Part shown: positions 12,043-53,437 of the stretch, piece after piece
Layout of the letters: each line of letters begins with the position of its first letter
Numbering within the stretch: position 1 is the stretch's first letter
Source: Spironucleus salmonicida
Lineage: Eukaryota > Fornicata > Diplomonadida > Hexamitidae
Length of the DNA: 64,000 nucleotides
Assembly: GCA_000497125.2 (NCBI GenBank)
Contig: CM035320.1
Span: 256,001 to 320,000, forward strand
Direction: 5' to 3'
The notes under the pieces: generated by a model
Databases searched by the model: none
What the model was told of the DNA's origin: nothing
The model's input: the letters and a program-made list of their open reading frames with translations, nothing else
Program-made: the position numbers and the translations under genes

Positions 12043-15000
12043 ATGGAGACATATTATGGCCAACTATTATAATGGGGGCTTAACTTCACAAGAGATTAAA
12101 AATTGGATTCTGGATGTATTCATTAAATATTAGAAGCATCATTCATGATAAAATTTGATCTTAAAGATAATATAAAAGACATGTTTTTGTAAATACCAGA
12201 TATTGATGATATGAATTATGCGCTGGAATGCTAATAAGGTATTATTAATAATAAAAAGGAAGCTATAGAAGATTTTATGGATATGGTTATTAATATCCAT
12301 GATGATAAGGAGGAATTTTTAAAGTCGAAATAGATTAAATTTATCGAGCGACTTTAATAATAAATTATTGATTCACAATAAAAAAATTAATAACTATAAA
12401 AATAAATTGCTAAACTAATTGCTGCTCAAGAAAAATAAGAGAAAAATATTGATCTACTTACACTGAGCTGTTAGCAATATATACCATCAGATGTATTATA
12501 AAAGTGTCTTATTGACATTTCTAATATTTTTTAGAATTGCTAATTAGATTTTTCTTTATATTGTGTCAATTTGTTCTAAAAATTTTAAGTAACATTATAT
12601 TAGTAATAAGAAGCTTGGCAACAAGACAATGATATGTTATAATCATAAAACTAGCAGCTAAAGTAATCATTAGATAATATTATTAGTACTAAATGTGACT
12701 TAAACTTTTTAGAACTATCATAAAATTAAGATTAATAAAGTTCTATTAGTAATGAAATTAAATTATTTAAGAAATAGCTCGCAGAAGCCACGAAGCAGAT
12801 CGAGGAAGCGAAGGTAACTGACGCCGAAGTCCGGAATATCCTGGCCAGAAATGTTCCCGAGGCTATCCTCAATGAAGAGGTCAGATCCGTGATGGCGCAA
12901 AGGCTAGCCGATCATATTCACCAGCTGTAGTCTGAGCTGGACCAGTATAAGAATATAGGCGAGATTCCTGATGTATATTAAACTTACGAAGACTGTAAGA
13001 CGGCGTCAACAGAGCGAGACCTACTGACAGAGCAGGTAGCTGCGCTCCAGCTAGCATGTGGGTTCAACCACGCCGATGCCGATTTCTTAACAAAACACAC
13101 TGAGCAAGTCATAACCATTAATCATCTGGTAGAACTTGGAGATGCTGCTGATGAGATCGTGCGATTGAAGAACTAGGAGTAGAGACTAGCTGAGGTTACC
13201 CAGCAGACGTCCGAAATGGGAATCATGATTACTGAGCTGGAGGGGCTACTTTCGATCTAAGAAAAGACTAGCGCTGAAAGCGGCATCCTTGAGCGCACCC
13301 GCCATTCAGTGGACGAGGTAGGCGCCAGGATCCAAGAACTAGCACTTCTAAAAGAAATTGGTTCTTACGAAGATATCACAAGTAAGATTTCCCAATACCA
13401 ACAGGACCTCGAAGATATTTAAGCTAAATATTTAGAAGCGACGAGAGCACTTCTCGAAATAATCACGGTGACTGAATAGGTCAATGATTTAGATGACGAA
13501 ATCGTGGTTACTATGACGGCACTAGACGGAGTAAATAAATAGCGCGATTAGCTCGCAGAAGCCACGAAGCAGATCGAGGAAGCGAAGGTAACTGACGCCG
13601 AAGTCCGGAATATCCTGGCCAGAAATGTTCCCGAGGCTATCCTCAATGAAGAGGTCAGATCCGTGATGGCGCAAAGGCTAGCCGATCATATTCACCAGCT
13701 GTAGTCTGAGCTGGACCAGTATAAGAATATAGGCGAGATTCCTGATGTATATTAAACTTACGAAGACTGTAAGACGGCGTCAACAGAGCGAGACCTACTG
13801 ACAGAGCAGGTAGCTGCGCTCCAGCTAGCATGTGGGTTCAACCACGCCGATGCCGATTTCTTAACAAAACACACTGAGCAAGTCATAACCATTAATCATC
13901 TGGTAGAACTTGGAGATGCTGCTGATGAGATCGTGCGATTGAAGAACTAGGAGTAGAGACTAGCTGAGGTTACCCAGCAGACGTCCGAAATGGGAATCAT
14001 GATTACTGAGCTGGAGGGGCTACTTTCGATCTAAGAAAAGACTAGCGCTGAAAGCGGCATCCTTGAGCGCACCCGCCATTCAGTGGACGAGGTAGGCGCC
14101 AGGATCCAAGAACTAGCACTTCTAAAAGAAATTGGTTCTTACGAAGATATCACAAGTAAGATTTCCCAATACCAACAGGACCTCGAAGATATTTAAGCTA
14201 AATATTTAGAAGCGACGAGAGCACTTCTCGAAATAATCACGGTGACTGAATAGGTCAATGATTTAGATGACGAAATCGTGGTTACTATGACGGCACTAGA
14301 CGGAGTAAATAAATAGCGCGATTAGCTCGCAGAAGCCACGAAGCAGATCGAGGAAGCGAAGGTAACTGACGCCGAAGTCCGGAATATCCTGGCCAGAAAT
14401 GTTCCCGAGGCTATCCTCAATGAAGAGGTCAGATCCGTGATGGCGCAAAGGCTAGCCGATCATATTCACCAGCTGTAGTCTGAGCTGGACCAGTATAAGA
14501 ATATAGGCGAGATTCCTGATGTATATTAAACTTACGAAGACTGTAAGACGGCGTCAACAGAGCGAGACCTACTGACAGAGCAGGTAGCTGCGCTCCAGCT
14601 AGCATGTGGGTTCAACCACGCCGATGCCGATTTCTTAACAAAACACACTGAGCAAGTCATAACCATTAATCATCTGGTAGAACTTGGAGATGCTGCTGAT
14701 GAGATCGTGCGATTGAAGAACTAGGAGTAGAGACTAGCTGAGGTTACCCAGCAGACGTCCGAAATGGGAATCATGATTACTGAGCTGGAGGGGCTACTTT
14801 CGATCTAAGAAAAGACTAGCGCTGAAAGCGGCATCCTTGAGCGCACCCGCCATTCAGTGGACGAGGTAGGCGCCAGGATCCAAGAACTAGCACTTCTAAA
14901 AGAAATTGGTTCTTACGAAGATATCACAAGTAAGATTTCCCAATACCAACAGGACCTCGAAGATATTTAAGCTAAATATTTAGAAGCGACGAGAGCACTT

Positions 15001-16764
15001 CTCGAAATAATCACGGTGACTGAATAGGTCAATGATTTAGATGACGAAATCGTGGTTACTATGACGGCACTAGACGGAGTAAATAAATAGCGCGATTAGC
15101 TCGCAGAAGCCACGAAGCAGATCGAGGAAGCGAAGGTAACTGACGCCGAAGTCCGGAATATCCTGGCCAGAAATGTTCCCGAGGCTATCCTCAATGAAGA
15201 GGTCAGATCCGTGATGGCGCAAAGGCTAGCCGATCATATTCACCAGCTGTAGTCTGAGCTGGACCAGTATAAGAATATAGGCGAGATTCCTGATGTATAT
15301 TAAACTTACGAAGACTGTAAGACGGCGTCAACAGAGCGAGACCTACTGACAGAGCAGGTAGCTGCGCTCCAGCTAGCATGTGGGTTCAACCACGCCGATG
15401 CCGATTTCTTAACAAAACACACTGAGCAAGTCATAACCATTAATCATCTGGTAGAACTTGGAGATGCTGCTGATGAGATCGTGCGATTGAAGAACTAGGA
15501 GTAGAGACTAGCTGAGGTTACCCAGCAGACGTCCGAAATGGGAATCATGATTACTGAGCTGGAGGGGCTACTTTCGATCTAAGAAAAGACTAGCGCTGAA
15601 AGCGGCATCCTTGAGCGCACCCGCCATTCAGTGGACGAGGTAGGCGCCAGGATCCAAGAACTAGCACTTCTAAAAGAAATTGGTTCTTACGAAGATATCA
15701 CAAGTAAGATTTCCCAATACCAACAGGACCTCGAAGATATTTAAGCTAAATATTTAGAAGCGACGAGAGCACTTCTCGAAATAATCACGGTGACTGAATA
15801 GGTCAATGATTTAGATGACGAAATCGTGGTTACTATGACGGCACTAGACGGAGTAAATAAATAGCGCGATTAGCTCGCAGAAGCCACGAAGCAGATCGAG
15901 GAAGCGAAGGTAACTGACGCCGAAGTCCGGAATATCCTGGCCAGAAATGTTCCCGAGGCTATCCTCAATGAAGAGGTCAGATCCGTGATGGCGCAAAGGC
16001 TAGCCGATCATATTCACCAACTGTAGTCTGAGCTGGACCAGTATAAGAATATAGGCGAGATTCCTGATGTATATTAAACTTACGAAGACTGTAAGACGGC
16101 GTCAACAGAGCGAGACCTACTGACAGAGCAGGTAGCTGCGCTCCAGCTAGCATGTGGGTTCAACCACGCCGATGCCGATTTCTTAACAAAACACACTGAG
16201 CAAGTCATAACCATTAATCATCTGGTAGAACTTGGAGATGCTGCTGATGAGATCGTGCGATTGAAGAACTAGGAGTAGAGACTAGCTGAGGTTACCCAGC
16301 AGACGTCCGAAATGGGAATCATGATTACTGAGCTGGAGGGGCTACTTTCGATCTAAGAAAAGACTAGCGCTGAAAGCGGCATCCTTGAGCGCACCCGCCA
16401 TTCAGTGGACGAGGTAGGCGCCAGGATCCAAGAATCAAACAGAAACTATAATGAAACATAAAAATTAATTAATTAAAACAACCAGTTATAAAAACAGCTA
16501 GAAGATATGACTCATTAAGCTTAAAACAACAATGTAAAATTAGATAATATTATATTTTAACTATTTCCAGATAATGATGCTTTATTATCAAAAGAAGAGC
16601 AAATCTAAAAATTTATTTATCAAGTTTAATAACTAATAGAAGATAGGAAAGAATTAGAACTAAAGAAAGAAAATACTCGATAGAAACTTTTAGATATAGA
16701 TTAAAAGAGAGATAAGATATTAGAAGAAAAAATATAATAAATACTCAGAAGCAATTAACATTGA
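12043..16764 (+). CDS. giant coiled-coil protein with 258-residue tandem repeats, 1,573 aa
   Basis: ATG at 12043 (METYYGQLLQWGLNFTRD), TGA at 16762-16764, one frame of 4,722 bases. Residues 1-245 are an AT-rich, Gln-rich helical region. Residues 246-1464 are 4.7 near-identical copies of a 258-residue unit rich in Leu/Glu/Ala/Gln with heptad spacing. Residues 1465-1573 are again AT-rich coiled coil. Each unit contains several in-frame TAA and TAG codons, so the array is a strong witness for the altered code. The long regular coiled coil suggests a structural, perhaps cytoskeletal protein; no known family is recognised. The repeats are much more GC-rich than the flanks. Confidence 0.85.
12778..16434 (+). 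repeat. 774-bp in-frame tandem repeat, about 4.7 copies
   Basis: Copies begin at 12778, 13552, 14326, 15100 and 15874; the spacing is exactly 774 bases (258 codons), and the last copy stops at 16434. By eye the copies are almost identical; one substitution is visible at about 16019 (CAG to CAA). Near-identity implies recent duplication or active homogenisation. Copy number may be underestimated if an assembly collapsed the array. Confidence 0.95.
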
Positions 16765-26662: not shown

Positions 26663-27865
26663 ATGAATTGTAAATCTTGTTCAAATGTACTTATTTCACC
26701 GTACCAGCTACCATGTGGGCATTCATTTTGCTTTACTTGTATTGAATCGTTGCAAAATAAGTAGAAATTTTTTCATTGTCCAACATGCAAAAAATTGGTG
26801 CTTTCTAAACCAATTGAAAATGTAGATCTACAGCAACTGCTATAGTAAAAATAAAAGTAGTCACATGATACTTCTATAACTAGTTTAGTACTGTGTTTTA
26901 ATGGGACAGCTATAACTAAACAAAATACGTAATTCACTGTTTTCCTTACAAAAGTTCATCCAAAAAAGTAAGATTTTCTCAACCTTTCAATCTAGGGAAA
27001 ATTTTAAGGAGAGGCTTAGATAAAAATTAAAGTATAGAACTAGTTTGTTCACGAATTTTCACACATATTCTAAGGAACGCTCCTTTCAATCCCGTTTGGC
27101 CCCCGAAGTTTTCTTGAAGGGAAATTTGGAAAAGAGTGGAAAATCGATATTCAGTTGGAGCAGCATATTCCTAAGACCAGTAGCGAGTTTGTACTTGATA
27201 TAACCAACCCTAAGGGCTTTGGCGACGCAATCAAGGCATTTAAGAGGCAACGAGAGCTAAATAGACCACAAGAAGCTCTAAACGAAGGTCAGATGCTCCA
27301 AAACGAAGAGCTGTACAGCCTTAAAAGGCACCTAAAAAGCCAGAACGCCGCGCACAACCTAACCCGCCAAATGCTCAAAAAAGCCCACTCCGAAACGTGC
27401 AGCTACAGGCAGTACGCCCGGAAACTCAAATTCGAGCTCGGCGAACACGGCCTCCAGCAGCAGAAATTGGGCCTCTACCGCCAGACGATTTAGCAGCAAA
27501 AGCAGACGATTTTAAAGCACAATTTGATCTTCGATAAGCTGCGCGGCGTGCTGCCGCACCCGCAAAAAGTCTTCAAAATCCAAAACGCTGATCGCTCGAT
27601 TTTGCTCTGCGAGGAGCGCATTGAAATCAGGCCGCGCTTCTTCGACGGCGTTCTGGCCACTGCGGCCGTCGACGTGAAACTGGAAAATTTTAAATTTTTA
27701 AGGGTCGAAAAGGTCCAAAATCGCGCGTTCAGGAGGTGGGAAAATGGTACTTTTGACTGCAACGCTTTGGTTCGGAACGGGCTGATTCGGGAGATCCTGG
27801 TACGGGCGGCTGCGGGGGCTAGCGTTTCTGTTTGCGGGAGATAGATTGAAAGTGAAGATGAGTGA
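26663..27865 (+). CDS. RING-finger protein with coiled-coil middle, 400 aa
   Basis: ATG at 26663 begins directly with a C3HC4 RING: CKSCSNVLISPYQLPCGHSF, then CFTC and HCPTCKK, closing by residue 51. A beta-rich linker follows to about 165, then a coiled coil (LQNEELYSLKRHLKSQ) and a globular basic C-terminus with VRNGLIREILVRAAAGASVSV near the end. It is probably an E3 ubiquitin ligase. The 5' half is AT-rich and the 3' half, from about 27060, is strongly GC-rich within the same frame. TGA at 27863-27865; a TAG Gln sits eight codons before it. Confidence 0.82.
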
Positions 27866-27961
27866 ATTATTATATAATAATAGATATATAAATGGGAAAA
27901 ATGGAGTGGAAGGAAGTAACAATATTAACATTATTATATAGTAATAATATTATAATAAAAA

Positions 27962-29008
27962 ATGAATAATTATTATAGCATACATTTATCGCGGACAGAA
28001 GCGTTATTATCTCAGAAAATGCCGCAAAATATATTTAATAAGGTAGACCAGTAAATTTCCTTAATTATTTAATCAGATAGTGATCTAAGAGTTAAAATAG
28101 CCTAGTTGGAAGAGATAACAATTTAGCACTAGCTCCTTGCATACCAGGTGATATAGTTTGGCATTTTTGAATTTCTATTCTAAAATATTTCAAAGTTTCC
28201 ATCAACAATTTTAGCCATTCTCGCAGATCTCGTTTAGCCGGATTTGGAAGTTCTTTATCTTCAAAACTTGATTTTTTTACAACCTATTTTTAGTTTAATT
28301 ACAACAACTTATCATCCCCATATTTTATCAAAATACCTATTTTTACTATGTAGGTTAAACTAATAATTTCAATTAGAAATTTTCGTCGGACTTGGCCATT
28401 AAGCCTTAAAAAACATATAAAATTTTGACTATTAAATCGATCCTGATAGCGAGATGTATTTTTTATAGTTGTTTCGTTATGTTTCTAAGTCACTTTTCTT
28501 TACAAGTTTCTTTAGTAGTTAAGAGGTATATGATTTTTTAGTTTGTGCATCGAAATATAAGTTGGCTCAGACATAAAACTATTTTGAAATTTATTCTAAT
28601 CATTTACTACATCAGATTGATTTTTATAATTTTATAGAAGTGAATGAGGAGCAAAATAATGCAATTTCTCTTTTAAAAATATCGTAAAAGGTACCTTTTA
28701 CGAGATTATTAATTGGACTTATATCTTAGGCTCAAACTGGAAACCTGATATTGTTTGCATTGAATAATTTAAAAACAACTAAAGTATCTTCTAGTTTGGC
28801 TCGTTTTTCAGTTATATTTATGCATAAAATTATTATACAATTTAATATAAATATAGACAATTTAGATGTAAATTTTAAAGTATTATCATAAATTGCAGGT
28901 GGATAACGATTTGAATTAGTTCATTAAGCAGTTTAAGAATTAATATACTTAAGTGAAGAGTTAACTGAAGATGAAAAATGCGACTTAATTGGTTATTTCC
29001 GACGCTGA
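27962..29008 (+). CDS. helical-repeat (armadillo/HEAT-like) protein, 348 aa
   Basis: ATG at 27962 (MNNYYSIHLSRTEALLSQKM), TGA at 29006-29008. The sequence is a series of amphipathic helices rich in Leu/Ile/Phe (FPSTILAILADLVQPDLEVL; SLITTTYHPHILSKYLFLLC), a pattern typical of alpha-solenoid repeats. No catalytic motif or signal peptide is seen. The exact repeat family cannot be assigned by eye. Likely a scaffold or adaptor. Confidence 0.6.
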
Positions 29009-29151: not shown

Positions 29152-32100
29152 TCATTTTTTTGGTATCAAAAAGCTTTTGTCTAACCCACTTAATTCGTAG
29201 TTTTTCGTTTATCTACTTTCGATCACGAAACTCGCACCATACAGTTCGAGTTACCGCCTAAATGGTAATTTTCCTATCTACGACTAGAATAGTTTGTCGG
29301 GACGTGGCTTAGATGACTTTATTAAGTTTGAGTTTATACCAGAAAATTTAGAAATTTGCAGAGACTTTTCATACCCAGAGCAAATATCTTCAAGTGAAAT
29401 TTTGAGGGTTTTTGGTTCGCAAGAATTCGATTAAAGTTATGAAAAGTAGAGATTTGCAGGATCATTTAGGTCTAGTTAATTGAGCTTTTTCTTCATTTCG
29501 CTGTGCTTTGCTTTTGTGTCATTAAATTCAAAATTATATATGAATTTTTATGGAAACTTTTGTTGTTTAGTAGATATATCAGGAGAAATTTTTACGGAGA
29601 AATCTAAGTCTTCTGGTCTTACTTCATTATGATTTATTTGCCGGGGATGAGATTAAGTCTCAGTTGATAAAAGTTCTGATTCAATTGTTTAATATTTAAG
29701 ATGTGAAGATTTTAATTATGTTTAAAGAGTTTTTAAGTGAGTTTTATTAAGAAGTTGTAGAGCTTATATTTTGAGACTTGAATTGTTTTGAGAGTTCACA
29801 GAAGCATCTAATATATCCGTTGATTCTGATTGTTCTGTAGGGGAATTAAGTACCTCAGTTGTCTCTGATGACTTAAGTACAGTCTGGATGTAATCATCAT
29901 CAATTATTTCATGTTATGATAAATAACAATAATTGGATTTATCATTTTATGATTTATCAAATTAAACTAAATTATTAGATAGCTTTATTTGATTTTATTA
30001 GATTAAGTCATTGCACGAACTATCATTTAAATTGTATGCAGATGTATCAAGTTAGATTGTGATTCCTGAGGCTACATCGATGATTGACTACTAAAATTGG
30101 TCTAATTTTTATAAAGATTCCTACGTTAAATCTTAAGATTTTTATTTTTTACCTTCAATAATAAGCTAAAGTGAATTAATATTGCTACCTTAAGATTGTT
30201 ATAAACTTAATCTTTTTTGAGAATCATTAGTTTAAAGTTATTTAAAATTAGCGTGCTCCCTTTCTACCTCCTTCCCAGATAGGTCCGCCAGGGTACTGCG
30301 GGCGTTGGAGTGCTCTGCCTCTGCCTCCTTCCCAGATAGGTCCGCCAGGGTACTGCGGGCGTTGGAGTGCTCTGCCTCTGCCTCCTTCCCAGATAGGTCC
30401 GCCAGGGTACTGCGGGCGTTGGAGTGCTCTGCCTCTACCTCCTTCATAGATAGGTCCGCCAGGGTACTGCGGGCGTTGGAGTGCTCTGCCTCTACCTCCT
30501 TCCCAGATAGGTCCGCCAGGGTACTGCGGGCGTTGGAGTGCTCTGCCTCTGCCTCCTTCCCAGATAGGTCCGCCAGGGTACTGCGGGCGTTGGAGTGCTC
30601 TGCCTCTACCTCCTTCATAGATAGGTCCGCCAGGGTACTGCGGGCGTTGGAGTGCTCTGCCTCTGCCTCCTTCCCAGATAGGTCCGCCAGGGTACTGCGG
30701 GCGTTGGAGTGCTCTGCCTCTGCCTCCTTCCCAGATAGGTCCGCCAGGGTACTGCGGGCGTTGGAGTGCTCTGCCTCTGCCTCCTTCCCAGATAGGTCCG
30801 CCAGGGTACTGCGGGCGTTGGAGTGCTCTGCCTCTGCCTCCTTCCCAGATAGGTCCGCCAGGGTACTGCGGGCGTTGGAGTGCTCTGCCTCTACCTCCTT
30901 CCCAGATAGGTCCGCCAGGGTACTGCGGGCGTTGGAGTGCTCTGCCTCTACCTCCTTCCCAGATAGGTCCGCCAGGGTACTGCGGGCGTTGGAGTGCTCT
31001 GCCTCTGCCTCCTTCCCAGATAGGTCCGCCAGGGTACTGCGGGCGTTGGAGTGCTCTGCCTCTACCTCCTTCATAGATAGGTCCGCCAGGGTACTGCGGG
31101 CGTTGGAGTGCTCTGCCTCTACCTCCTTCATAGATAGGTCCGCCAGGGTACTGCGGGCGTTGGAGTGCTCTGCCTCTACCTCCTTCCCAGATAGGTCCGC
31201 CAGGGTACTGCGGGCGTTGGAGTGCTCTGCCTCTGCCTCCTTCCCAGATAGGTCCGCCAGGGTACTGCGGGCGTTGGAGTGCTCTACCTCCTTCATAGAT
31301 AGGTCCGCCAGGGTACTGCGGGCGTTGGAGTGCTCTGCCTCTGCCTCCTTCATAGATAGGTCCGCCAGGGTACTGCGGGCGTTGGAGTGCTCTGCCTCTG
31401 CCTCCTTCATAGATAGGTCCGCCAGGGTACTGCGGGCGTTGGAGTGCTCTGCCTCTGCCTCCTTCATAGATAGGTCCGCCAGGGTACTGCGGGCGTTGGA
31501 GTGCTCTGCCTCTGCCTCCTTCATAGATAGGTCCGCCAGGGTACTGCGGGCGTTGGAGTGCTCTGCCTCTGCCTCCTTCATAGATAGGTCCGCCAGGGTA
31601 CTGCGGGCGTTGGAGTGCTCTGCCTCTGCCTCCTTCATAGATAGGTCCGCCAGGGTACTGCGGGCGTTGGAGTGCTCTACCTCCTTCATAGATAGGTCCG
31701 CCAGGGTACTGCGGGCGTTGGATCTGTCAGCATCTGTCCAGTCTATTTCAGGAGCATCAATTGTTGCTCGTTGCAACATATCCGTATTGCCACTTGCTTA
31801 CTTTGCAATAAATTTTTTTGGAACCCTCATATCTTTTGTCGGTTTATTATTTATAGAACTTTAGTTTTATAGAGCTGCTAGATTATAATTTTATGGATAA
31901 TGAGTATATTAAATAGGAATTTCTATAATTTTATTTTGATCATTATTTATAGGTTATGGTGGAGAATACTGGCAGATATTACTGCTACGTTAATTTATAG
32001 TTTAAAATTTTGGCTTTTAATGTTCCATCATCTTATCTATATCTACGATATCTGTTTCCTGATTTTCTTCTATAATTGGAAATATAAGTTAATTTAAGGT

Positions 32101-46480: not shown

Positions 46481-46924
46481 TCAGAATTAAGGTGCTGTAT
46501 TTGGTAAAACTGGTTTTATATCGTCTTCTGACGATTTTATAGCTGAATGATGAGGTTGATCTTATTATTATGGTGGTTATTATACATGTTATTAAATAGC
46601 CTCATAGCCTTAGGGAAGTTCTACTAGTTCACCATTTTATCCTTAAACAAATAATCTTTATTACATTTCAACTCCAGGTCTTTCTTATGGTGGTAAATAC
46701 GCGAAGCAACAACCTTTTCTAACTCTAGTAAATCCCATTCTACGCTTTTATATATCATATACTCTCCACAAACTTACACCAATAAGAATGAATAGCATGA
46801 TATAAATTATATCATAAACTAATGAAATTTTTGTAAGTCCACCTTAACAGCGATAATATTAATAGTAAGAATAACATTTTGAAAGACATTATTCTAGACA
46901 TTGCTATTCAGAAAAGAAAGTCAT
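46481..46924 (-). CDS. single-pass membrane protein with C-x3-C-x3-C-x8-C motif, 147 aa (family member A)
   Basis: ATG at 46924, TGA at 46481-46483. The N-terminus MTFFSEQQCLEQCLSKC continues to a fourth Cys after eight residues, then GGLTKISL leads into a membrane helix (IIYIMLFILIGVSLW). The positive residues after the helix (YDIQKRRMGF) predict that the N-terminus faces the lumen or outside and the C-terminus the cytosol. The cytosolic tail has Pro/Gln/His-rich sequence. The Cys spacing, the TKISL match and the post-membrane segment are shared with genes at 47915-48256 and 52617-53063. Two ATGs in another frame (46902 region) give only a short frame. Confidence 0.7.
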
Positions 46925-46984
46925 TTTTGGAGTATAGTATAAAGTTAAAAAATATTATATTGTAGAATTTTATAGTAAAATATA

Positions 46985-47851
46985 TCATTCAAAATGAGCT
47001 TCGATCCAACTTTCTATATCTATTCCTTTACCGCAACAAATACAGCCATAATGTTTCATAATAATTTCAAACTGCTCAAATTCATCTAACATCTCAATTT
47101 TCTCCATCTCATTTCTACCATTCCATTTCTTATAAACCTCCCAAGCTTCTTTGCAAAATATACTTTCACACTCATTCTCTAAAAACCTAGCCCTATAACT
47201 ACCCGTATAGCCAACTTCTGCAAATGTAGGCATGAATGTTTCGCGACGTGACATGTTAAATATCATTGTATCGCCAAATTTGTCATCAGGATTGATCATT
47301 TCAAATGAAATATATGCATAATATGCAAACTAACGCATTTATTTAATTAGATCAATTGTTGAATCTGATTCTATATATGATACGACGACGTCAGAAATAA
47401 ATAATGTTGGAATATCCTTTTAAAACTAAAGAAGAATATCAGGTTCTTCTAAATCACCTGATTGTATAGAGTAAAATTCATTATATTTATAAGTACCATC
47501 ATCTTATTTTTACATATTAAGTTTATGAGCCTTAGTTTAAATAATTTCTGGTAAATCTAACTCAGTAAATTTCATCGCAGGCTCATTTAGCCTGAAATAA
47601 AGAGTATCAAGACCACCACCAAGCACTATAATTTATCCATTTTCGTGAGTTTGTATAAATTTTAATGCTAGTTACTATATAAAACGAACACGGAACCATG
47701 TACCACGGTTAATCATGGGATCTTTATGTTATGGATTTTTGTGATACACTTTCTATAACATAGGATCATCAAAATACTTTTTATACGCTGCAGAAGCTTT
47801 AGAGGCAATTGCGTCATTTGCAGTGGCTTGAGCAGTAGGTTTGTAGGACAT
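46985..47851 (-). CDS. LCMT1: leucine carboxyl methyltransferase (LCMT1-like), 288 aa
   Basis: ATG at 47851 (MSYKPTAQATANDAIASKAS), TGA at 46985-46987. It shows the family order: NDAIASKASAAYKKYFDDP near the start, INRGTWFRVRFI, the SAM-binding motif VLGGGLDTLYFRL, ELDLPEII, and a C-terminal FAEVGYTG-type segment. LCMT1 methylates the C-terminal leucine of the PP2A catalytic subunit and so controls PP2A holoenzyme assembly in the cytosol. Length is slightly short of the usual 320-330. Confidence 0.88.
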
Positions 47852-47914
47852 TTATTAGTGAAACTTAAGATCACCATTATTTTATAATAAAGTATATAAT
47901 AAAAATATACAATT

Positions 47915-48256
47915 TCAGACTAAATCTAAACTATCTTCGGCATTTTTACAAGTTTAGTATTCTTTTAAGGCTTACTCTAATGATAATATATCCTTATTTT
48001 AAAAAAACATAGTATTGTCTACAAATTTATACTTTAAACGACATCCTTATCTTACTAACTTATATCCTATTTTTCTTTTGTACTTATCATAATAACGAAA
48101 ACAAAGCAAAACAGTTAGCAGCAACAATACAACAAACAAAATATCAATTATTAAAGATATTTTAGTAAAACCTGACTTACAATTGTACATATCTCCTTTA
48201 TGTATGCAAACAGAAAGACACATTTTTTAACATTGGACTTCAGAATCAAAAGTCAT
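47915..48256 (-). CDS. single-pass membrane protein with C-x3-C-x3-C-x8-C motif, 113 aa (family member B)
   Basis: ATG at 48256, TGA at 47915-47917. It begins MTFDSEVQCQKMCLSVC, with a fourth Cys eight residues on, then SGFTKISL, a membrane helix (IIDILFVVLLLLTVLLCF) and a basic segment (RYYDKYKRKIGYKLVRQGC). The first nine residues, the four Cys positions and the post-membrane G-Y/F, VR and GC features align without gaps with member A at 46481. The tail is short and charged. No named family is recognised. By the positive-inside rule the Cys motif is lumenal or extracellular. Confidence 0.7.
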
Positions 48257-48364
48257 TTTATAAATTAATTAATTAATTAATTAATTTGAAATAATGATTA
48301 AATAAAGAATTAAAAGTTTACAATAATTATTTGTTTATATATTCATAATAGTTATATTATAATC

Positions 48365-49897
<1,533 letters not shown>

Positions 49898-50344
49898 ATT
49901 TTTATTTTGTATATAAAATAATTTAATATATAAACTGACTTATCGGAAAATAATAACTTTAGTTTGTTTTAAAAATACAATCCATATACTATCTTATATA
50001 TCATTTTATTAATATTACCAACAAAACAATTATTAACCTAATTATTAGTATATAATTAACAATATACAAATTATTCTAAGTCTGTATTTACCCATATTAT
50101 TATAATTAAACATGAGAAATAGAAAATTTTAACTCCTATACAAGTTAAATCAAATATATTTCATGATTATCTAAGATACGCAATAAACCACTAAAAATCA
50201 AAAATTTCATTACTTAAAAAAACACCAAATACTACTTTAAAACGCAAATAAAACTATATACTCTAACTTATACGTAAAAACCACAAATAGCCAATATGAG
50301 TGAAAACCGCAATCTTTAAATCCGCAACCGTTATCACCTTATAA
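49898..50344. other. intergenic, AT-rich
   Basis: About 450 bases with no coding-like frame, between two minus-strand genes. It likely contains the promoter of the pseudokinase-kinase gene and the 3' flank of the helicase gene. Confidence 0.5.
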
Positions 50345-52192
50345 TCACATATCATCCACTTTGACCATATTTTAGCCTATCCAAGTCTCGATGCTCTCGA
50401 CTCCAAAAACTTCTGAAAGCTCTATTTTTTCTTCGCCGTATATTGCCTCAAAAAGATCACCTTTTTTCTGAATTACATTTAGAATTTGATTTTCCACTTC
50501 ACTTCCACCATCGACGAAAACACTTAAAATTTATCTAAATTTACTGCTCACGCGCCTGATCCGACCCTCTGCCTAAACGATTCCAGCCGCCGTCCAGCAA
50601 AGCTGCAGGAAGAAGCAGATACCACAATTCGACAAATCGAATCCCAGATTCGCGCATTCCATTGAGAGTGCGATCTTCTAAATTTCATCGTCTTAGAACT
50701 AGCGAATTAGCGTCTTCCGCTCTTAAATTGAAGTTCTACCATCAATTTTGGGGCATATGCTTTGAAGGGCATCCGCTACTTAAATTGAGCTAAAAAACAC
50801 AACTGATTTGTGATTAAAATTTTTGTAAAAATTCAGAAAAAACGGTAACTTCGGGAGCGTTGACGCAAGTTGAAGGAGAGCTGGACAAGAAGGTGTGGAA
50901 AGTTGATTTGTTTTTGGAATCATTATTTAAAATTTAACTCTTTTTACCGCTGGAATCGGCAGCAAATCATACGATCGGCGGATTGAGAAGATTTTTAGAA
51001 TCTAAGATAGTTCTTTTACGTTTTTATGGGCAATAATTTTTTGGTATTTTTTCGTGTTCTCAGTTATTGCATAACGGTCTTAAAAGGCTTTCATTGTAAC
51101 GTTGAGCCCTAAAATACGTAAAATTGAGTATAGCTCTGTACTATTGTTCAGAGCTGGTGTTGCAGTTAAAATCGCTACATTAGTAATCTAATTGCAAAAA
51201 TTTACTAAAAGTTGAGTGCGTTTTGCGGTAATATCTTTATACTCATGAAATTCGTCAATCAAAAGGCTAGTAAGCTTCAAATTCAGGCCGTCGTTAATAA
51301 TCTTTTGAAACTCAGTAAAAGTGAGTAGTAAAATTACTTTTTGTAATGCTGAGTTATTAAATAACTGTATAAAATTGTTTGTTTTATGTATTTGTGAATA
51401 ATCCATTAATGAGTATTTTTATTATTTTTGAAGAGCGTAGAATGAATTTATTTCAGTTTTCTTTTTGCTCATTTCTACAAAATCGATCCCTAATTATTTT
51501 ATTGTTTTCACCCAATTTTAATGTACTATAAATGGTGCAATTATCAGTATAGGTTTTTAGAAATCTAATAAAAAGATTAAGGACGGTAGTGATTTTCCAA
51601 GTCCAGGAGAATCTAGAAATGCGAATTTTTCAAATTTCCTGGCCTGATCTAGTCCTAATTGTTGATGTGGAAAAAGGGGAAAATCAAAAATCAAAGTTGT
51701 TCTTTGAGGGGACTAATTTTTATTTTAAAATTATTCTATATCCCTAAGAATTAAAGATATAGGTTCCAATTAATACTAAATCTGAAAGAAACCATACTAA
51801 TTCTCTAATGTTGTTTTAAGTTGTAGTTAATTAAATTTTTGAGCGTTTTAAAATTATATTTAGTATTCAAAAATAGAGTTATTACCTTATATTTAGAATC
51901 CTGGCACACGTTAATCTACCAGAGATTAAAAACAAACTGGAAGATAAAAATGTTATGGAAATCCTTCAACCTATGTAAATTATGCGATAATAGTTGTAGA
52001 GAATGTAAATGTAATCTTGTAAAATTGTTTATACTTTTTAATAATAATATCAGGACTCTATATTTATGGAGCAGGCTTAAGTAAAATTCTAATTTTTTAT
52101 CGTTACACTAATGATAATTATGGCTATATATCAGGCTATTATATAGAATGGTATTTCTTTTCTTTGATTCTGATTTTAGTATTATTGTTCAT
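50345..52192 (-). CDS. SNF2-family helicase, SMARCAL1/ZRANB3-like, 615 aa
   Basis: ATG at 52192 (MNNNTKIRIKEKKYHSIQQP), TGA at 50345-50347. Residues about 60-150 look like a HARP-type module (TTIIAQFTQVEGF; VPGFQIQ). Then come SNF2 motifs: FPLFPHQQLGL (Q/motif region), DSPGLGKSLPSL (Walker A), LLIDEFHEYKD (motif II, DEFH instead of DEAH), VAILTATPALNNS (motif III), HKSVVFFSSIQVADAL (motif IV), CANLGFDLSNC (motif V) and QAEGRIRRV (motif VI). The compact form without inserted domains matches SMARCAL1, an annealing helicase that remodels stalled replication forks. The 3' 600 bases are GC-richer than the rest. Confidence 0.85.
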
Positions 52193-52616
52193 TTTTATTT
52201 GTATAACTAACTAAATAGTATAATAATAATATAGTGTTTTAATACTGTAATATAAAAATTAAAAATAATTTATATATGCATTCATATTTAAACTATAATC
52301 TTGTATTGAATAAATAAATGATATGGTAGCTATGCTATGAAACAAGATCCCAATTATAAAAAAAGTCATTTTATTAGGTTTAAAGATAGGGAGGTCTACT
52401 TAGTAAAATTAAGACTTTGATACTTCATTATTCTTAATAGATATTGGTTGTATTATCAATCATTGCAATATATCGAAATTTATAACTGAACATAATGCAT
52501 CTAAGACATTAATTATATATAACTTTCTATATTTAACCTACAATAAATTAATAAAGCAAAAATATTTTTTGCTTAAATTTATGTCTACTTATATAATATT
52601 AATTTAGTATCTTAAA
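52193..52616. other. divergent intergenic region
   Basis: About 420 bases of AT-rich DNA between the helicase and the GC-rich island. Composition changes abruptly within about ten bases of the ATG at 52617. No element recognised. Confidence 0.5.
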
Positions 52617-53063
52617 ATGCTATCAGATGACTGCACGAAGCTGTGCATGAAAACGTGCGTGATCGTGAACGACTAGTCAGTCTGCCCGGGGAACCTTACC
52701 TGGACCACCCTGGTCTACATCATCGCCGGCGGCGTGATGGCAGTGTGTCTTCCGCTCGTTGTGTACAACATCTACTGCTCCATGAAGCACCGTGCTGGCT
52801 ACGTCCGGCTGCAGACCAGCGGGCCCTTCTTCAGGTACGTCACCATGGACGAGATCGAGCGCCTGCGCGGCGAGAACGTGCCTCTGGTGCAGAGCCAGCG
52901 GCCCGCGCCCAGGAGCGCCGCAAGCACGTCCAGCGACCCCGAGGTGCCGCAGGAGACCAGAGCGGTGCAGAAGGAGCCCGTCTCCCTCAAGTCGCTCCAG
53001 AAGCACAAGGCGCCCACGTCCAGGTTCGCGTTCCAGCCCACCTCGCCCGCGAATAATGAGTGA
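52617..53063 (+). CDS. GC-rich member of the C-x3-C-x3-C-x8-C membrane protein family, 148 aa (family member C)
   Basis: ATG at 52617, TGA at 53061-53063. The start MLSDDCTKLCMKTC reaches a fourth Cys after eight residues, then PGNLTWTTLVY and a membrane helix (IIAGGVMAVCLPLVVYNIY), followed by basic MKHRAGYVRLQ and a tail with RYVTMDEIERLRGENV and Ser/Pro/Ala-rich sequence. The Cys spacing equals that of members A and B. Codons are almost all G/C-ending, unlike every neighbour. The TAG at codon 20, inside the x8 loop, must be read as Gln, so the gene obeys the host code despite its composition. Confidence 0.75.
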
Positions 53064-53082
53064 GTTCTGCACTTCACGCCCC

Positions 53083-53437
53083 TCAGCGCAGCCCGAAGTC
53101 GCGCATGAACACGTCCTTGAAGTGCTGGCGCCGGAAGCAGCCGACGAGCTGGAACCACTGCGCGTCGAAGTCCGCCAGGTTCGCGCGGAACAGGTGCACC
53201 AGCGCCAGCATCTGCAGCTGGTCCACGAAGAGCCGCAACAGCAGCACCAGGTCGTAGCAGGTGAGCCGCTCGCGACTGTCCAGGGCCTGGGCGAACTCCA
53301 CGCGCGCCTGGTCGCTGAAGATCTCGTGTGCGAACGCCGCGTACAGGCGGTGCCGCAGAGATAGGTGGGGCTCTTCAATCGGCTCCTGCCGCTCCCCCTC
53401 AGGCTCTGAAGAACGGTATATGCTTGTGACGCGACAT
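53083..53437 (-). CDS. GC-rich hypothetical protein, start uncertain
   Basis: A minus-strand frame ending at TGA 53083-53085 codes a well-formed helical protein (LVLLLRLFVDQLQMLALVHL; FRANLADFDAQWFQLVGCFR). It stays open upstream through EPEGERQEPIEEPHLSL to beyond 53440 but meets no ATG. The only nearby ATG (53435-53437) starts a different frame that stops after 12 codons. A single-base indel between about 53400 and 53437, or a non-AUG start such as GTG 53301, would explain this. The plus-strand frames opposite are Pro/Ala/Arg-rich shadows. Convergent with member C, 19 bases between stops. Confidence 0.5.

Follow-up and report, generated by a model that had tools for sequence, protein, structure and literature searches.

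A clustered family of small cysteine-bearing proteins with one predicted membrane helix in Spironucleus salmonicida, four of which join differing N-terminal parts to a near-identical GC-rich tail

The CRMPs of Spironucleus salmonicida are recognized by three or more CXXC or CXC motifs (PMC3916229). The same paper reports that no signal peptides were found in the CRMPs, that one of three tagged CRMP-1 proteins lay on the surface of the body and flagella, and that AAA before the ATG is a common start context of CRMP-1 genes (PMC3916229); a later paper counts a few CRMP signal peptides (PMC11437800). The VSP and HCMP proteins of Giardia also pair a Cys ectodomain with a membrane anchor, and the CX3C spacing is familiar from the small Tim proteins. 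The reovirus FAST proteins, influenza C CM2, and DAP10/DAP12 are likewise small, span the membrane once with the N-terminus out, and expose only a short ectodomain. Short-ectodomain signaling adaptors cross-link subunits through disulfides, and CX3C spacings can hold metal.

The window analyzed here is a 64,000-nucleotide stretch of S. salmonicida, C5:256001-320000, the genes of which were read under genetic code 6, in which TAA and TAG specify Gln. The original prediction was that three genes in this window encode small single-pass proteins with an exact C-x3-C-x3-C-x8-C near the N-terminus. All three are present, open under this code, and carry the exact spacing: A (window 46481..46924, minus strand, 147 aa, ending PNTAPQF) and B (47915..48256, minus, 113 aa) have Cys at 9/13/17/26 and a membrane helix at approximately 33-53, and the GC-rich gene C (52617..53063, plus, 148 aa) has Cys at 6/10/14/23 and a helix at approximately 32-52. 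The start assigned to B is an internal ATG within a 143-aa frame, picked for its A-rich start context. The G/N-x-T after the last Cys (N-L-T at 26-28 in C), the single hydrophobic helix, and the MTF-SE--C and TKISL stretches were likewise as described; the basic G-Y/F-x-x-V/L-R segment needs a small correction, as C reads G-Y-V-R-L-Q. Gene A also has CC at 72-73 and AAA before its ATG, and uses TAA/TAG for 19 of its Gln codons and CAA/CAG for 2. A leucine carboxyl methyltransferase gene (PF04072; 46985..47851, minus), lying between A and B but outside the family, served as a database control. Scans of the window for tRNAs and Rfam families returned no matches.

A, B, and C belong to a real family, and one that is bigger than first claimed. 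By genome tblastn and regional motif and profile scans we identified 11 loci, all on C5 between 302.5 and 453.9 kb, with the genome outside C5 256-480 kb covered by single-protein tblastn only. Along C5 these are A (302481-302924, minus), B (303915-304256, minus), C (308617-309063, plus), C' (321970-322416, minus), F (346893-347342, plus), D (360368-360817, plus), E (366547-366996, minus), G (368017-368484, plus), H (410294-410632, minus), I (412448-412804, plus), and J (453553-453903, minus). The tblastn queries were B, J, C, D, residues 1-76 of H, and G, and they were run against a genome of 37 contigs totaling 14.47 Mb; the chromosome-scale assembly in print (PMC9509377) comprises 42 scaffolds and 14.7 Mb.

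Eight loci were thus found beyond the three, and the three also align with one another better than shuffled controls. Regional shuffles preserving the composition of the N-terminus, helix, juxtamembrane part, and tail reached the observed score in 0 (A-B), 0 (A-C), and 1 (B-C) of 2000 runs; with the N-terminal Cys masked, the counts were 0, 1, and 23 in 1000. Six further pairs were scored with Cys masked, five of them giving 0/1000 and B-J 29/1000. The distant pairs B-C and B-J are thus weak by themselves, and B and C are joined through other members. A nine-member profile run against 2610 ORFs from C5 256-480 kb recovered the 11 members at E <= 1.9e-31, with the next match at E = 0.076. In the same 2610 stop-to-stop ORFs the four-Cys motif occurs 10 times, each time in a family member, whereas a residue-shuffle control gave a mean of 1.46 and a maximum of 4 (50 runs). 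At the DNA level, a pattern covering the first three Cys turns up at 890 places across the genome (reversed control, 463), too many for Cys spacing alone to define the family. The exact motif is present at 10 of the 11 loci; the exception, G, looks degenerate, as Cys2 and Cys4 are gone and no AAA stands before its ATG, though its frame is still open. AAA immediately precedes the ATG in nine members, and all 11 are 112-155 aa long with a Cys content of 3.2-6.2%.

Judged from sequence searches, the family is apparently undescribed and lineage-specific, with Hexamita, Trepomonas, and Giardia as the database comparators. Searched twice by profile, a set of 5.8 billion proteins gave 6 hits (987 candidates) and 5 hits (7995 scored of a larger set), in both cases in S. 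salmonicida only, including the window's own B; A, H, and J were absent from the hits of both. The methyltransferase control, in the same search, matched proteins of Hexamita inflata, Trepomonas sp. PC1, and Giardia, so the database does contain proteins from all three. No Pfam or NCBIfam match to A, B, or C reached its curated cut-off, and a ten-member Pfam screen, scored beyond the first member by E-values only, returned six families, each matching a single member, with a best E of 0.0072. A search of solved sequences gave chance-level matches only, and comparison of the B model with the PDB and a viral library (Foldseek), and with VIA, was uninformative. None of the literature titles and abstract starts covered names the family, the term "CX3C" is absent from the diplomonad main texts searched, and SS50377_24783, SS50377_24794, SS50377_24803, SS50377_24837, and V6LV17 have no mention in the searched literature. 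Compared with gene C (148 aa), the public record V6LV17 (147 aa) departs over a short stretch close to the C-terminus, which may reflect a difference in assembly.

The predicted structure of B (AlphaFold, 10 sequences) has a helix at 6-12, strands at 17-20 and 23-26, a long helix at 32-63, strands at 65-70 and 73-78, and then a low-confidence helix, with a mean pLDDT of 77.2 and residues 1-60 at 90-97 in blocks of ten. The model of J (nine sequences) follows the same order of elements up to the juxtamembrane hairpin at lower confidence, with a mean pLDDT of 65.9 and N-terminal blocks at 69-74. The two models, built from largely overlapping sets of sequences, agree on a putative ectodomain of a short helix and a beta-hairpin bearing the Cys, then the membrane helix, then a hairpin. 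In B, Cys 9 lies on the short helix, 13 just past it, and 17 and 26 at the ends of the hairpin, a placement that, going by residue numbers, suits two disulfides. A different use of the same residues would be to cross-link subunits into disulfide-linked oligomers, with the function in the tail. The tiny ectodomain with near-invariant Cys and variable loops would be compatible with such a cap, as would the conserved juxtamembrane segment and a C-terminal peptide common to 5 of 11 members; the even number of Cys and the confident, compact B model fit pairing within one chain instead, and we consider the cross-linking role unlikely.

The helix starts at residue 28-44 in all 11 members, and in all 11 the 15 residues after it contain more Lys and Arg than those before it, H by a narrow 3 to 2. 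This asymmetry predicts that the Cys end lies outside the cell or in a lumen, as first proposed. An N-x-T sequon falls within three residues after Cys4 in five members (C, C', D, E, and F), and a juxtamembrane Lys and Gly are invariant in an alignment of the nine intact sequences. Five members, A and D-G, have both a CC and a PNTAPQF C-terminus. No signal peptide is recognizable in the family; as the CRMPs mostly lack one too, entry without a recognizable signal peptide is plausible. The lack of a recognizable signal peptide, the CC near basic residues in those five tails, and CX3C spacings able to hold metal would also suit a cytosolic Cys end that is metal-binding or acylated, making these proteins organelle tethers rather than surface proteins. 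The charge asymmetry of all 11 members favors the opposite orientation, however, and the sequon just past Cys4 in 5 of 11 points the same way, so that we regard a cytosolic tether as distinctly improbable.

Like CRMP-1 and CRMP-2 (PMC3916229), the family is Cys-bearing, single-pass, and devoid of a recognizable signal peptide. The identity of the members as CRMPs was considered and rejected: none of the 11 has a CXXC or a CXC, which bears out the view that the spacing is distinct from that of the diplomonad CxxC surface proteins, their helix lies near the N-terminus in place of the C-terminal transmembrane domain of CRMPs, and the CRMP-1 motif [KR][KR]X[KR][KR] is absent from all 11. The likeness to the Giardia VSP and HCMP proteins is closest in D-G, where a variable ectodomain sits on a constant anchor; the family differs in having an ectodomain of approximately 30 residues, no CXXC, and few, clustered members, and no C-terminus carries the CRGKA cytosolic end of VSPs. 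Small Tim proteins were correctly set apart at the outset, since two CX3C blocks 10-17 residues apart occur in 0 of 11 members, which have instead a single CX3CX3CX8C block followed by the membrane helix. The resemblance to FAST proteins, CM2, DAP10, and DAP12 is architectural only, with no sequence relation found; the influenza C CM2 model hit a single member of the ten screened (E 0.042), as chance would predict.

What is new here is that in four members, D, E, F, and G, differing AT-rich ectodomains stand on one near-identical GC-rich tail, as though copying among the genes had joined different caps to one tail. The 3' parts of these genes are 99.6-100% identical, whereas before the edge identity is 48-55%. 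For D/E the edge is at codon 27, the first codon past Cys4; for the other five pairs it is at codons 61-65, just beyond the membrane helix. It had been suggested that divergent tails carry the specificity; tails do diverge elsewhere in the family, but D-G show the reverse arrangement. Averaged over 36 ungapped pairs of nine members, and for these two parts only, identity is 17% at non-Cys ectodomain positions and 26% in the next 37 residues, the latter raised by the helix that D and E share. The shared blocks of D-G are 0.76-3.5 kb long and extend 0.5-3.3 kb beyond the stop codon into other sequence, so the tails may have become identical as passengers. The near-identical 3.5 kb blocks with the F and G tails also include CRMP-like genes (C5:349425-350306 and C5:370569-371450). 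Gene C lies in a GC-rich block of its own (window 52592..53412, plus, 821 bp, starting 25 bp upstream of the ATG), which recurs inverted at C5:321621-322439 with 98.8% identity and 12.2 kb between the blocks; the C and C' coding copies differ at two sites and encode the same protein.

The copied parts stand out in composition. Third-position GC, taken over 30 codons, then 28, then the rest, with mixed bins at the edges, is 0.07-0.53 in unique parts and 0.80-0.96 in shared parts, and in gene C it is 0.80 in the ectodomain, 0.86 in the helix, and 0.91 in the tail. At the edge in D-G, Gln moves from mostly TAA/TAG to mostly CAG: with cuts at codons 27, 27, 62, and 68, the 5' parts have 11 TAA/TAG and 4 CAA/CAG, and the tails 2 and 40, the four tails being copies that count as one sample. 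On C5 280-480 kb, repeated DNA (at least 250 bp at at least 95% identity within these 200 kb only, a tandem array at about 286-288 kb left out) is 43.7% GC and the remainder 29.6%; of the 500-bp windows above 42% GC, 58 of 94 are at least half repeated, versus 56 of 305 others. Genome-wide values close to these two percentages, 44.7% for repeated and 30.7% for other DNA, have been published, by authors who suggest that gene conversion might help expand the Cys-rich surface repertoire (PMC9509377). A GC bias of that conversion is our own suggestion, with which low-GC unique and high-GC shared parts would fit; the literature covered on such biased conversion in diplomonads came down to one title, on Giardia ribosomes. 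The rule that GC-rich means repeated is not clean: of three islands above 42% GC in 1-kb bins of the window, those at 14.5-15.5 and 30.3-31.3 kb consist in part of tandem repeats, and for the third (27001-28000, GC 0.44) a genome search turned up no other copy. An AT-rich control (window 47-48 kb) is single copy, and the C block is repeated but too short to show in such bins.

The mosaic may be selectively neutral: a recombination-prone GC-rich block by CRMP-like genes would have overwritten members from the 3' side, the ectodomain variety being old divergence awaiting overwrite. That the blocks outrun the genes, that the F/G block takes in a CRMP-like gene, that edges differ between pairs, and that G, itself a mosaic, is degenerate all argue for this reading, which is compatible with any view of the proteins; the placement of the edges near domain borders argues against it, though with so few edges this may be chance. 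We give the neutral account a probability only a little short of even.

The best explanation overall, and one to which we assign about an even chance, is a lineage-specific family of membrane proteins with an N-out or lumenal Cys cap and recombined 3' parts. The membrane helix would act as a reverse signal anchor, leaving the N-terminus outside or in a lumen as an ectodomain of approximately 20 residues stapled by two disulfides among its four Cys. The variable loop residues might contact a ligand, a neighboring protein, or the host, and the basic juxtamembrane G-F/Y segment would anchor a cytosolic tail, acylatable at the CC of five members. Ectopic recombination, probably GC-biased gene conversion, would have homogenized the 3' parts of D-G. 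A receptor, adhesion, or redox function had been proposed; varied loops within a near-invariant Cys frame would fit ligand contact or antigen variety at a surface better than catalysis. More ambitiously, GC-biased conversion might spread anchor and tail with edges at domain borders, each locus keeping its own cap and upstream region as a surface repertoire. We think this improbable, yet if true it would give the parasite, in addition to the CRMPs, a second variable surface system in miniature, the conversion tracts of which could be read from the GC step inside single genes. The published CXXC/CXC-based classification of S. salmonicida Cys-rich proteins would miss the family. D-G show, within genes, recombination leaving GC-rich, near-identical 3' parts on different ectodomains, and existing reads could now test the association of duplication with GC content that has been reported for this genome.

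Other repeats were observed in the region. The window contains a GC-rich tandem repeat of 774 bp (12952-16274), from which a 1001-base query matches four places, spaced 774 bp apart, at approximately 100% identity, and a GC-rich 57-bp tandem repeat (30263-31722; 25.8 copies, 96% matches) within a 642-codon code 6 frame. Farther along, C5:456111-466173 contains two inverted arms of 3370 bp, 100% identical and approximately 3.3 kb apart.
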